Origin: an uncultured Halieaceae bacterium
GTDB lineage: Bacteria; Pseudomonadota; Gammaproteobacteria; Pseudomonadales; Halieaceae
Length of the DNA stretch: 32,670 bases
Direction: 5' to 3'
Assembly (NCBI GenBank): GCA_913051825.1
Contig: CAJXCR010000014.1
Span: 1 to 32,670 of the forward strand
In this document: in pieces, positions 2,815 through 18,417 of the stretch
Layout of the letters: the number at the start of each line of letters is the position of its first letter
Position numbering within the stretch: the stretch's first letter is position 1
Made by a program: the position numbers and the translations under genes
The notes under the pieces: model-generated
The model's input: only the letters and a program-made list of their open reading frames with translations
What the model was told of the DNA's origin: nothing
Databases searched by the model: none

Positions 2815-4320
2815 ATGTTTCAATTCAGAAGCTATATTGCATTGCTTTGTTTCTTTAGCCAAAAAGTTGCGGCGGTGGGTTTTGACCAGACTGTAGAAAA
2901 TCTAGTCCGCCCCTTAGCAAATAATCTATCTCAATTTGTGTTCTATGAAATAAGTGTCTTTGGAGCGCAAATGCCTTGGATTGTTCTCTGGCTAGCTAGT
3001 GCCGGATTTTTTTTCACATTTTATTTAGGCTTTATAAATGTAAGTGGCTTCACCTGGGCTATTCGCCATGTCCGAGGAGATTTCCATGATCCAGATGCCC
3101 CCGGAGAAATATCGCACTTTAAAGCAGTTTCCACTGCAGTATCCGGCACGGTTGGAATAGGTAATATTGGAGGGGTCGCGGTTGCGATCGTAATTGGGGG
3201 ACCAGGTGCAGCATTCTGGTTACTGGTTGCAGGTTTTTTATCAATGTCTACAAAGCTTGTGGAGTGTACTCTTGGAGTTAAATATAGAAGACATAATAAA
3301 GATGGTTCAGTTTCCGGTGGGCCAATGTTTTATTTGGAGCACTATCTTGCTTCTCGCGGATTTCCGATATTTGGACGATTTTTTGGACTATTTTACGCTT
3401 TGGCCCTCGTCATTGGCTGTTTTGGGATTGGCAATATGTTCCAATCCAATCAAGCTTATGCGCAGTTTGTTGTTATCACTGGAGGAGAAAATAGTTTTTT
3501 CTTCGATAAGGGCTGGCTTTTTGGTATAGGAATAGCAATGGTTGTAGCTATGGTCATCATCGGTGGAATTCGTTCCATCGCGCGAACGGCCAGTCTGATA
3601 GTGCCTTTTATGGGGGGGCTATATTTAATTAGCTGCGTGACAATTGTCTTGATGAGCTACGATCAAATACCAGGAGCAGTTGACCTTATTGTCAGTAATG
3701 CATTCAACCTTGAAAGTGCTACAGGAGGGCTGATTGGTTCTTTAATTGTTGGTTTTCAGCGAGCTGCTTTTTCTAACGAAGCAGGATTAGGTTCTGCATC
3801 GATTGCTCATTCAGCAGTACAAACCAGGCACCCCGCGTCGGAGGGATTGGTCTCATTATTGGAGCCATTTGTCGATACTATAGTGATTTGTAGCCTCACT
3901 TCTTTGGTGATTATTACGACGGCATATCCTTTTGGTCTTGTTGATCAAGGATTTGAGGGTATAGAATTAACCTCTGCATCGTTCGCACATCACTTTTCAT
4001 GGGCGCCATATCCATTGGCTGTGGCTGCGCTTTTATTTGCTTTTTCAAGCAGTATTGCTTGGGCCTACTATGGATTGAAAGGCTGGACCTACCTTTTTGG
4101 TGAAGGTAGAAAAACTCAGTTACTTTTCAAAGGCATTTTTTGTTGCTTTCTTGCTTTGGGCTGCATGATTCAATTGAGAGCTGTTCTTGATTTCTCTGAC
4201 GCCATGACCTTTTTGATCGCCCTTCCTAATGTTCTGGGACTCTATCTATTCGCTCCAGAGGTAAAACGAGAAATATCAAATTACCTAGTCAAACTGAAGT
4301 CAGGAGAATTACAAGCATAA
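2815..4320 (+). CDS. Alanine/glycine:cation symporter family protein (AGCS, AlsT/DagA type)
   Basis: A 501-residue inner-membrane transporter of the AGCS family, which imports alanine or glycine with Na+ or H+. Family signatures are clear: the FFFTFYLGFINV helix, the loop A-V-S-G-T-V-G-I-G-N-I-G-G-V-A near residue 115, G-P-G-A-A-F-W with a following T-K-L-V-E-C-T-L-G-V-K-Y-R, G-G-P-M-F-Y-L near 170, G-N-M-F-Q-S-N-Q near 210, and A-A-F-S-N-E-A-G-L-G-S-A near 320, which is a strongly conserved ion/substrate region. About ten to eleven hydrophobic segments are visible. The N-terminal segment ending KVAAVG resembles a signal peptide and may be a signal anchor. AGGGA sits 7 bases before the ATG. 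The gene stands alone on its strand, diverging from an SDR and converging on the dioxygenase gene with only 7 bases between the stops. The substrate within the family is not certain. Confidence 0.93.
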   Translation: MFQFRSYIALLCFFSQKVAAVGFDQTVENLVRPLANNLSQFVFYEISVFGAQMPWIVLWLASAGFFFTFYLGFINVSGFTWAIRHVRGDFHDPDAPGEISHFKAVSTAVSGTVGIGNIGGVAVAIVIGGPGAAFWLLVAGFLSMSTKLVECTLGVKYRRHNKDGSVSGGPMFYLEHYLASRGFPIFGRFFGLFYALALVIGCFGIGNMFQSNQAYAQFVVITGGENSFFFDKGWLFGIGIAMVVAMVIIGGIRSIARTASLIVPFMGGLYLISCVTIVLMSYDQIPGAVDLIVSNAFNLESATGGLIGSLIVGFQRAAFSNEAGLGSASIAHSAVQTRHPASEGLVSLLEPFVDTIVICSLTSLVIITTAYPFGLVDQGFEGIELTSASFAHHFSWAPYPLAVAALLFAFSSSIAWAYYGLKGWTYLFGEGRKTQLLFKGIFCCFLALGCMIQLRAVLDFSDAMTFLIALPNVLGLYLFAPEVKREISNYLVKLKSGELQA

Positions 4321-15477: not shown

Positions 15478-16194
15478 ATGAAATTTCCTGTTTTACTATC
15501 GTTTTTGTTTTTCCTTACGTCTCTATCAGTCATGGCCGAAAAAGAGGTCGTTGGGTACTCAAATTCAGATCCTTTAGAATCAATCAACCGACCAATTTTT
15601 GCACTTAACGATAGGCTAGATCGTTTTATTCTACGACCTGTTGCCGTTGGATATGACACTATTTCGCCTGATTTTATACAAAGAGGGGTCGGTAATATTT
15701 TTTCAAATACTGGTGATTTTACTACTAGCCTGAATCGTATTCTTCAAGGAGACTTTGTTGGCGCGACCTCAAGTGGTGGAAGATTTTTAGTAAACACAAC
15801 TTTGGGTCTTCTGGGTATCTTTGATGTGGCGTCTGAGATGGGCATAAATGAAGCAAAAAGCGACTTCGGCCAAACTTTATCCGTTTGGGGCTTTTCTAGC
15901 GGACCTTATCTTATGGTTCCTATGTTTGGACCAAGAACAGTTCGGTCAGGAGCAGGCTCGATCGTAGATTCTTTTTCCTCAGTTGAGAAGCAAATAGATA
16001 ATGTTCCTTTGCGTAATAGTGTCTGGGGAATAAAAGTGATTGATGGTAGGGCGGAGTTACTGAAGGCTGATGATCTTATCACGGGAGATAGATATATTTT
16101 TGTACGCGATGCTTATTTGCAAAGGCGCAAAGCTCTTGAGAGTGGCGATGTCGTTATTGATAATTTTGAGTATGAGACCGAAGAAGAATTCTAA
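15478..16194 (+). CDS. mlaA: MlaA/VacJ-family outer-membrane lipid asymmetry protein (no lipobox)
   Basis: A 238-residue MlaA protein. In the Mla pathway this outer-membrane component extracts misplaced phospholipids from the outer leaflet and hands them to periplasmic MlaC. Family signatures: D-P-L-E-S-I-N-R-P-I-F-A-L-N-D-R-L-D near 32-50, L-R-P-V-A-V-G-Y, N-I-F-S-N-T-G-D-F near 75, G-R-F-L-V-N-T-T-L-G-L-L-G-I-F-D-V-A near 105-122, D-F-G-Q-T-L-S-V-W-G and G-P-Y-L-M-V-P-M-F-G-P-R near 145-165. The signal peptide (MKFPVLLSFLFFLTSLSVMA) ends with an A-type cleavage site and has no cysteine, so unlike E. coli MlaA it should not be lipidated. mlaBCDEF are not in this window, as in many gammaproteobacteria where mlaA is separate. 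The PP2C regulator gene follows after 129 bases on the same strand. Confidence 0.93.
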   Translation: MKFPVLLSFLFFLTSLSVMAEKEVVGYSNSDPLESINRPIFALNDRLDRFILRPVAVGYDTISPDFIQRGVGNIFSNTGDFTTSLNRILQGDFVGATSSGGRFLVNTTLGLLGIFDVASEMGINEAKSDFGQTLSVWGFSSGPYLMVPMFGPRTVRSGAGSIVDSFSSVEKQIDNVPLRNSVWGIKVIDGRAELLKADDLITGDRYIFVRDAYLQRRKALESGDVVIDNFEYETEEEF

Positions 16195-16323: not shown

Positions 16324-17481
16324 ATGTACGAAGGAAACGTTCTTGTAATAGATGACGACCCTGGGCGTGCCCAGACGTTAGCTGAGTCGGTAAGAAAAGT
16401 AGGCTTCGATGCTCAAATAATCACTGACGCTTTCAATGAGGAATTTTCTCTTAATAGCGATAGTCAATTAGATGTAGTTCTTTGCGAAATGGATCTAAAG
16501 GATTTTTCTTGGAGAGAGGCTAGTCACGCTCTAAAAAAGATGGATGTCCAAGTGCCTGCCATTATGCTTAGTGATGAGTTTCAATCTGATCAAATGATAA
16601 CGGCATTGAGATTGGGTGCTAGTGATTTTTTTGTTCGTCCGCTTGATAGTAAAGCTTTATTCAAATCAATCAAACGTTGTGTTCGTCAGCGGAGACTCAA
16701 GCGAGAACTTAAAGATTCTAGAATTAAACTCGAAAATTCAATAAAAGTCTTGGAGCAAGATCAGCTAGCTGGTCGTCAAGCACAATTAGCTATGCTCCCT
16801 GATTCACCAATGCATCTTGATCATTATTCCTTTAGTCATATGGTAATCCCATCGCTTTATTTGAGCGGTGACTTTATAGATTATTTTACCGTAGGTGATC
16901 GATACATTACTTTTTTTATAGCGGACGTATCAGGTCACGGAAGTTCCTCAGCTTTTGCTACGGTGTTAATGAAGAATTTATTTGCGCGTAAGAGATCAGA
17001 TTTTTTTAGGCGGGACGACGATACAATTCGTTGGCCAGCAAAAATGTTAAGTAGAGCAAATAAAGAGCTTTTGGATTTGGGTGTTGATAAGTTTGCGACA
17101 ATGGTGGTGGGCGTTATCGATATTATTAATAATTCTTTGTCCTATAGCATAGCGGGGCATTTGCCCCTTCCTGTCCTGATTACACCTGGAGAAGATGCTC
17201 GATTCCTGTCTGGAGAAGGTCCTCCGGTAGGTTTGATATCCGATGCTGAATTTAAGGAACAACAAATTCAATTGCCAGATGTCTTTATGCTTTCAATATT
17301 TTCTGATGGTATTTTAGAAATTCTTCCAGCTTCAAATCTTATATCTAAAGAATCGTGTTTTCTGGAGAAATTCGAGAGATCAGTTGTTCCTTCCGATGAC
17401 CTTATAAAATCGCTCGGGCTTTTGGATGCGCAACCTGCACCTGATGATATAGCAGGATTGTTCATAAGTAGGAAGCATTGA
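16324..17481 (+). CDS. Response-regulator-like protein with PP2C (SpoIIE-type) phosphatase domain; degenerate receiver
   Basis: A 385-residue cytosolic regulator. Residues 1-118 are a CheY-like receiver (acidic cluster D10-D11-D12), 118-155 a charged linker helix, probably a coiled coil, and 155-385 a PPM/SpoIIE-type Ser/Thr phosphatase. Phosphatase metal ligands are intact: D183 and D186 (S-G-D-F-I-D), D201 in D-V-S-G-H-G and D374-D375 in D-D-I-A-G-L, so catalysis is expected. The receiver is odd: the phospho-accepting Asp is Glu55 (V-V-L-C-E-M-D-L) and the conserved Lys is Arg105 (F-F-V-R-P-L), while the switch Ser83 is kept. Known relatives (RssB-like and HsbR-like regulators) dephosphorylate a STAS anti-sigma antagonist, and a STAS gene follows after a 1-base gap, fitting a partner switch. 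The ATG has no strong ribosome site. A GTPase-free, phosphorylation-independent receiver is inference. Confidence 0.92.
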   Translation: MYEGNVLVIDDDPGRAQTLAESVRKVGFDAQIITDAFNEEFSLNSDSQLDVVLCEMDLKDFSWREASHALKKMDVQVPAIMLSDEFQSDQMITALRLGASDFFVRPLDSKALFKSIKRCVRQRRLKRELKDSRIKLENSIKVLEQDQLAGRQAQLAMLPDSPMHLDHYSFSHMVIPSLYLSGDFIDYFTVGDRYITFFIADVSGHGSSSAFATVLMKNLFARKRSDFFRRDDDTIRWPAKMLSRANKELLDLGVDKFATMVVGVIDIINNSLSYSIAGHLPLPVLITPGEDARFLSGEGPPVGLISDAEFKEQQIQLPDVFMLSIFSDGILEILPASNLISKESCFLEKFERSVVPSDDLIKSLGLLDAQPAPDDIAGLFISRKH

Positions 17482-17482
17482 T

Positions 17483-17968
17483 ATGAAGCAAGCGAAGATA
17501 CAGGGAGCTAGCCATAATGGAGCATATGTGATTCGATTTCAGGGAGATATCAGATTAACACTTAGCGCAAGTGTTGATGATTATTTCAGTGACATGTGCA
17601 AGGATCCTGATTTTGCCAGTGTGTGGCTTGATCTTGGTGATGCAGATGGCCTGGATAGCACTACGCTTGGAATTTTGGCTAAACTAGCGCTTAAAATTCG
17701 CAAGAATTTTGGGTTTTCTCCGGCTATATTTACCAGTCAGCCGGGTATTACTCGATTACTCCGGAGTATGGAGTTCCATAAGTTATTTGATCTTCGGGAA
17801 GAATGTTGTGTTACCTCTGAAGTGCCTCGAGATTTACCAATGGTTAGTGGCGATGAAACAGAATTGCGCCATAAAGTCATTGAAGCTCACAAAGTATTGA
17901 TGAATATTTCTGACGAAAACGAAGTAAAATTTAAAAATCTTGTTACTTCTTTAGAGCAAGCTATCTAA
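17483..17968 (+). CDS. STAS-domain protein, anti-sigma factor antagonist type
   Basis: A 161-residue protein whose first 110 residues form a STAS domain like SpoIIAA/HsbA: strand Y-V-I-R-F-Q-G-D-I-R-L-T, then V-W-L-D-L-G-D-A-D-G-L-D58-S59-T60-T-L-G, where S59 or T60 is the expected phosphorylation site, and later F-T-S-Q-P-G-I-T-R-L-L-R-S-M-E-F-H-K-L-F-D-L. In partner switching, the unphosphorylated STAS protein captures an anti-sigma factor and releases the sigma factor or another target; a PP2C phosphatase reactivates it. Its gene begins one base after the stop of the PP2C gene, so the two are a functional pair. Residues 110-161 form an acidic, helical tail (V-I-E-A-H-K-V-L-M-N-I-S-D-E-N-E) not part of the core. 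The kinase and the final target are not in this window. Confidence 0.9.
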   Translation: MKQAKIQGASHNGAYVIRFQGDIRLTLSASVDDYFSDMCKDPDFASVWLDLGDADGLDSTTLGILAKLALKIRKNFGFSPAIFTSQPGITRLLRSMEFHKLFDLREECCVTSEVPRDLPMVSGDETELRHKVIEAHKVLMNISDENEVKFKNLVTSLEQAI

Positions 17969-17975
17969 AGTTTTA

Positions 17976-17992
17976 AGCTTTATTTTAAAGCT
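17976..17992. terminator. Possible bidirectional terminator between convergent STAS and TerB-like genes
   Basis: AGCTTTA (17976-17982), TTT loop, TAAAGCT (17986-17992): a perfect 7-base-pair stem with AT-rich flanks, T-rich on both exits (AATAATTTT on plus, TAAAACTTT on minus). It sits just after the plus-strand stop at 17968 and overlaps the last codons and stop of the minus-strand gene. Only two G-C pairs make it weak. Confidence 0.4.
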
Positions 17993-18417
17993 AATAATTT
18001 TGCCCTAATGTAGTCAGAATGACTGAGATGTATCAGCTCGGAGACTCTTCTTATTATGTGCTCTTCGTAACGATCTATATCTCCATCTGCATGTGCGATA
18101 TGCCACATAGCGCACATTAGGGAAAATTTTTGATCATTTGAACAGTTCTCGTTAATGAGGCTGGTAAATTCGTATAGAGAGGTGGCCTTGTCAACTTTAT
18201 CCGTTGCACTTGAAATAATGCTTCTGACTTCTTCACTAGGTAGTTTTAAAAAAGTCTCTAAATGTACGGCCAAAGCTTTCTCTTCTTCAGCAGTTCTTTC
18301 AAAATCTGCTCTAGCCACCTCAACTAGGAGCGCAGCCGTGGCTAATCGTAAATCTTTTACAATATCTTTTTCATCGGGTTCTGATATTGATATAAAGTCT
18401 CGAAATTTCTTCAGCAT
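17980..18417 (-). CDS. TerB-like (tellurite-resistance fold) protein
   Basis: A 145-residue all-helical protein of the TerB-like family. It carries the characteristic repeated acidic helix-loop motifs: L-L-V-E-V-A-R-A-D-F-E-R-T-A-E-E-E near residues 31-47 and M-W-H-I-A-H-A-D-G-D-I-D-R-Y-E-E near 107-122, the latter resembling the metal-binding D-G-x-I/D-x-x-E signature of the fold. No signal peptide or membrane segment. TerB-like single-domain proteins are widespread and mostly uncharacterised; the family name does not imply tellurite resistance, and no terC, terD or terZ is here. The ATG overlaps the dusA stop (ATGCTGA arrangement), so it is translationally coupled to dusA as second gene of a two-gene unit. 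Confidence 0.85.
   Translation of the reverse strand: MLKKFRDFISISEPDEKDIVKDLRLATAALLVEVARADFERTAEEEKALAVHLETFLKLPSEEVRSIISSATDKVDKATSLYEFTSLINENCSNDQKFSLMCAMWHIAHADGDIDRYEEHIIRRVSELIHLSHSDYIRAKLLALK

Follow-up and report, generated by a model that had tools for sequence, protein, structure and literature searches.

The RssB-like PP2C regulator of a Halieaceae bacterium carries a receiver with Glu and Arg in place of the acceptor Asp and the conserved Lys

In the closest described system, the RssB-RssC pair of P. aeruginosa, RssB (PA2798) consists of a receiver with the residues D56 and K106, a linker and a PP2C domain, and its gene shares an operon with rssC. The reported target is RpoS, for whose degradation A. 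vinelandii and P. aeruginosa need both RssB and RssC (reported in PMC12923157), and the RssB dimer of P. aeruginosa has crossing linkers, much like RsbU (PMC12143880). The RssB of E. coli has a homologous receiver (D58 and K108) and a truncated PP2C domain that is dead; no rssC adjoins its gene in NC_000913. Two of its receiver mutants have been characterized: D58E showed an in vivo RpoS activity like that of the wild type (PMC10957080) and in vitro reached ~75% of the sigma-S binding of RssB~P, to which acetyl phosphate added nothing, while K108R had a lower sigma-S binding and its response to phosphorylation was abolished (PMC7226468). Receiver-PP2C regulators that work with an anti-sigma antagonist are also known from the HsbR-HsbA and CrsR-CrsA pairs (PMC6482189). 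Receiver folds without the acceptor Asp, the pseudo-receivers or ALR (e.g., ChxR, RitR, and the plant PRRs), most commonly have Glu as the replacement of the acceptor (26%; PMC4395418), and Arg is a common replacement of the Lys (PMC12632262). In ChxR, a Glu pseudo-receiver, activity survives the replacement of this Glu (PMC4395418), and how pseudo-receivers are switched is considered an open question (PMC12632262).

Here, we analyzed an rssB-like gene of an uncultured Halieaceae bacterium, located in a stretch of 32,670 nt that is referred to in its entirety as the window (Table 1); the closest match to the host was the single-cell assembly AG-333-E20 (84% identity). The best NCBIfam match of the protein, NF045505 (E 4e-94), scored 315.8 bits, under the genus-tuned strict cut-off of 700, and P. 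aeruginosa RssB (3eq2 and 3f7a) was the closest PDB entry both by sequence and by fold. The gene order mlaA-rssB-rssC was found in essentially all of the 80 named Halieaceae loci, with rssC present in 79 of them, and in the window only 1 nt separates the rssB stop from rssC. Based on this order together with the NCBIfam and PDB matches, we assign the gene to an rssB-rssC operon, as the orthologue that Halieaceae have of Pseudomonas-type RssB. The upstream gene is one that we take, from sequence resemblance, to be mlaA/vacJ, and a 145-aa gene on the reverse strand (17980-18417), convergent with rssC and with a match in 53 of the 80 named loci, is presumably TerB-like, again named by resemblance.

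The protein resembles P. aeruginosa RssB in the receiver-linker-PP2C order, in having rssC in the operon and in the PP2C metal aspartates (D183, D201, D328, and D375, aligned with D192, D210, D336, and D383), at ~36% identity. These four aspartates were invariant in 81/81 Halieaceae sequences, confirming the intact phosphatase site noted in the preliminary description and setting the protein apart from E. coli RssB with its dead PP2C domain. The only Pfam domains were Response_reg (residues 6-116) and SpoIIE (residues 192-383), with no kinase domain: unlike HsbR and CrsR, which have an extra kinase/anti-sigma domain, the protein ends after PP2C. By analogy with RsbV/SpoIIAA, the PP2C domain presumably has the phosphorylated Ser59 of the adjoining RssC as its substrate.

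Table 1 Features of the rssB-rssC locus in the window
Feature	Coordinates	Strand	Basis or remark
mlaA/vacJ-like gene, upstream neighbour	15478..16194	+	Same-strand match 5' of rssB in 80/80 named Halieaceae loci
rssB-like gene, 385 aa	16324..17481	+	Top NCBIfam match NF045505 RR_RssB_Pseudo; P. aeruginosa RssB 3eq2/3f7a
Pseudo-receiver domain	16324..16680	+	Pfam Response_reg (residues 6-116, over cut-off); AlphaFold model
D10-D11-D12, acidic metal-site residues	16351..16359	+	Alignment
Codon GAA of Glu55; acceptor position, D58 in E. coli	16486..16488	+	Alignment, model
Asp57, loop residue two past the acceptor, varies in orthologues	16492..16494	+	Alignment
Trp63, without variation in Halieaceae; RssB of E. 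coli and P. aeruginosa has Gly	16510..16512	+	Alignment, tree
Ser83, conserved Thr/Ser position	16570..16572	+	Alignment
Codon CGT of Arg105; conserved-Lys position, K108 in E. coli	16636..16638	+	Alignment
Helical linker, residues 121-165, receiver to PP2C	16684..16818	+	Model helix 109-156
PP2C/SpoIIE phosphatase domain, D183, D201, D328, D375 intact	16819..17478	+	Pfam SpoIIE, E 1e-28
rssC-like STAS anti-sigma-antagonist gene	17483..17968	+	NF045506 antisigant_RssC_Pseudo, E 6e-43
RssC Ser59, in motif DST	17657..17659	+	Motif invariant in 197/197 sequences

Translation of positions 16324-16680 reproduced the D10-D11-D12, Glu55, Ser83, and Arg105 that had been described for the receiver, together with D57. 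In an alignment of 116 sequences that included the RssB of E. coli (from NC_000913) and of P. aeruginosa, E55 was paired with D58/D56 (E. coli/P. aeruginosa), R105 with K108/K106, S83 with S86/S84, and D57 with A60/R58, and a pairwise match to PDB 3eq2 agreed on these positions. In the AlphaFold model (mean pLDDT 84) strand 3 ends at residue 55, strand 4 at residue 83, and strand 5 comprises residues 101-104, so that E55, S83, and R105 occupy the D, T, and K places of a receiver. The preliminary description, which had assigned Glu55 to the acceptor place and Arg105 to that of the conserved Lys, was thus upheld by the RssB alignment and the model alike. With the receiver fold recognised, the acceptor Asp absent and hence at least one of the five active-site residues lacking, the domain is a pseudo-receiver (ALR), and the phosphorylatable Asp and conserved Lys of Pseudomonas-type RssB receivers are both replaced; the other five receivers of the same genome keep D, T/S, and K and are canonical. 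A sequencing error or an oddity confined to the window was ruled out, as a congener also has E55 and R105, and Glu55 occurs in 54 of the 67 members of the clade described below.

We consider it very unlikely that the receiver is still phosphorylated, be it on Asp57, with the acceptor moved by two residues, or weakly on another residue. An Asp at this position, absent from the RssB of both E. coli and P. aeruginosa, does occur in 50 of the 81 named Halieaceae sequences, but the others have Glu, Gly, Asn, His, or Ala. The receiver has, moreover, no conserved Lys. It had been set out beforehand that Asp57 might prove to be the acceptor or the conserved site; with its alignment to A60/R58, its place past the end of strand 3 in the model and its variability, Asp57 was ruled out as the acceptor.

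In order to follow the spread of the two replacements, orthologues were gathered from 146 related genomes plus the named genomes, and the tree was computed without the trait columns. The Halieaceae sequences formed one clade (75 rows, SH-aLRT 100), within which 67 sequences grouped together (SH-aLRT 99) and eight early rows fell outside. In the clade of 67, the acceptor position was occupied by Glu (54), Asp (5), Thr (2), His (2), Gly, Gln, Lys, or Asn, and the Lys position by Arg (58), Thr (4), His (2), Lys (2), or Leu (1). Glu and Arg were found together in 52/67 sequences, which answers the count called for in the preliminary description, and the combination of Asp and Lys in 0/67, as compared to 5/8 of the early Halieaceae rows and 32 of the 39 orthologues from other families, none of which had Glu. 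The simplest history consistent with these sequences would be that Glu/Arg was acquired once, on the stem branch of this clade, followed by repeated changes, including an Asp regained without the Lys. The paired changes at E55 and R105 ran in the same direction, at a number of independent events too small for a co-variation signal (5-7 pairs, median p 0.25-0.5).

Several observations concern individual receivers. Trp63 was present in all 75 Halieaceae rows, including those with Asp and Lys, while other families mostly have Gly; judging from the alignment and the tree, this Trp is older than the Glu/Arg change, and it may pack near the receiver pocket. In a Luminiphilus-like genus (g12; e.g., genomes G013, G075, and G084) the RssB acceptor was Asn, His, or Thr instead of Glu, and RpoS and RssB were lost independently. 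Furthermore, a 1.7-Mb genome (G023, locus L124) had a Halieaceae RssB whose receiver has diverged strongly, with Ala at the acceptor and nothing aligned to the acidic pair, next to a recognisable PP2C part.

In this genome, no RpoS was found over the model cut-off, and the sole hit (2e-84) scored like RpoD-type hits elsewhere; RpoS was likewise not found in two congeners, the three assemblies being 88% (this genome), 70%, and 60% complete, levels at which such an absence by itself is no proof. Across the 72 Halieaceae genomes that were at least 90% complete, 55 had both RssB and RpoS, nine RssB only, four RpoS only, and four neither, so that RssB-RssC and RpoS are separable. The nine genomes with RssB and without RpoS include the single-contig genomes G041 and G084; in two genomes (G082 and G087) the RpoD-type hit was also missing, which weakens the absence calls there. 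Since RpoS was found neither in this genome nor in these nine, the RssB-RssC pair probably has another output in the Halieaceae where RpoS was not found. Glu stood at the acceptor in 47 of the 55 genomes that keep RpoS, so a tie between the Glu change and the loss of RpoS was ruled out, and the change came first.

It is possible, though in our view somewhat less likely than not, that in the RpoS-keeping Halieaceae RssB would still serve with RssC as an adaptor between RpoS and ClpXP, untuned by phosphorylation, and that it would be a leftover RssC phosphatase where RpoS is lacking. This reading, drawn by analogy, is in line with the joint requirement for RssB and RssC in A. vinelandii and P. 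aeruginosa and with the joint presence of RssB and RpoS in most of the near-complete genomes; the nine genomes with RssB alone and the four with RpoS alone argue against it.

The lack of an RpoS hit in the genus could also point to ordinary decay, with the RssB receiver drifting after its function was lost along with RpoS. The receiver was indeed more variable across the clade than PP2C (mean entropy 1.51 vs. 0.86 bits), but W63, D10, F103, and P106 were invariant, and Glu and Arg are also the norm where RpoS is kept. In comparison with the congener, dN/dS was 0.083 for the receiver, 0.079 for PP2C, and lowest for the linker (0.045), values that are rough at a dS of ~1.3; the dN/dS of many other pairs was near saturation and served as a rough check only. 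By these sequence comparisons, strong purifying selection acts on the receiver, which is therefore used and not decaying, and we regard decay as very improbable. The phospho-acceptor chemistry is gone, but the phosphatase-substrate pair looks to have been kept.

We also searched for a kinase that could act on RssC. Neither this genome nor G084 yielded an RsbW-type kinase (PF13581), and the PF13581 hits in G033 and G041 were weak only and typical of ordinary histidine kinases, which leaves the RssC partner-switch loop incomplete on paper. Elsewhere in this genus (G000:C39, locus L208, 2088-9596) a SiaB-like DUF6272 kinase (3229-3750) lies beside a SiaC-like protein of 119 aa, accompanied by cyclic-nucleotide-binding, adenylate-cyclase-like, and HDOD genes and by a gene for a HAMP-PP2C protein (785 aa) that is SiaA-like. 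Among the 61 Halieaceae genomes searched, DUF6272 was found in this genus only. As the SiaB-like protein has its own SiaC-like and SiaA-like genes adjoining, its candidacy as the RssC kinase is only a lead, and cross-talk between the SiaA/SiaB/SiaC-like set and RssC is speculation.

Taken together, the sequences, the model, and the analogy to related systems favor, with a probability of about 0.75 in our estimate, a phosphorylation-independent pseudo-receiver that gates an active PP2C phosphatase. With Glu55 at the acceptor and Arg105 in place of the phosphate-binding Lys, the receiver would lack the capacity for an aspartyl phosphate, which puts standard phospho-Asp chemistry out of reach and makes input from a histidine kinase unlikely, as had been suggested previously. 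The domain, which keeps the fold, the acidic pair, and Ser83, would act as a phosphorylation-independent regulatory, dimer-side domain, and its signal would pass via the conserved helical linker to PP2C; the crossing-linker dimer of P. aeruginosa RssB offers a route by which a receiver could act on PP2C without phosphate. The PP2C domain would most likely dephosphorylate phospho-Ser59 of the neighbouring RssC, and the input would come from protein partners or from the supply of phospho-RssC. Ligand control, proposed in the preliminary description, is possible for such an RssB-like phosphatase, and acetyl phosphate or His phosphorylation might act on another residue. E55 and R105 would keep the receiver in a single state, which may be the active one, and in this organism the output would be other than RpoS turnover.

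Whether this state amounts to a locked-on one is a narrower matter. The preliminary description had read Glu55 as a mimic of the phosphorylated state and the phosphatase as constitutively set, i.e., Glu55 and Arg105 would fix a phosphorylated-like state, and the activity of PP2C, along with any adaptor activity, would be constitutive and limited by expression or antagonists. Glu is retained in most of the clade, and the behavior of E. coli D58E, which mimics phosphorylated RssB and is blind to acetyl phosphate, indicates that Glu at this site can act as a mimic in RssB. On the other hand, K108R alone impairs E. coli RssB, so Arg is not neutral, at least next to Asp, ChxR stays active after its Glu is replaced, and the 13/67 clade members with Gly, Gln, Lys, Thr, His, Asn, or Asp at position 55 argue against a strict phosphomimic. 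Mimicry by Glu55 was therefore retained in part, a constitutively set phosphatase was not established, and we hold the locked-on state as a tentative possibility within the gating pseudo-receiver that we prefer.

A Glu/Arg pseudo-receiver is of a kind already known. In the literature searched, we found no description of an RssB that was converted throughout a family while its phosphatase stayed intact, or of its persistence where RpoS was not found, nor an RssB called a pseudo-receiver, and for Halieaceae and RpoS only an oil-exposure metatranscriptome study was retrieved. Few pseudo-receivers are tied to an assayable enzymatic output; as opposed to the DNA-binding domain of ChxR, RitR, and the plant PRRs, the predicted output here is a PP2C phosphatase in a partner-switch operon, with the gene of its presumed substrate adjoining. 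Evolution has combined two changes that in E. coli RssB were examined one at a time and has provided natural variants at the acceptor (Asp, Gly, Gln, Lys, Thr, His, and Asn). The reported target of P. aeruginosa RssB is RpoS, whereas no RpoS was found here, and our results suggest for RssB-RssC a role apart from RpoS turnover in some marine bacteria. As a wider view, which we put forward with reservation, the RssB-RssC pair of streamlined marine Halieaceae may have been cut off from aspartyl phosphorylation, RpoS, and an RsbW-type kinase, and would work as a partner switch with another RssC kinase and another target, its phosphatase being gated by a Glu/Arg pseudo-receiver.
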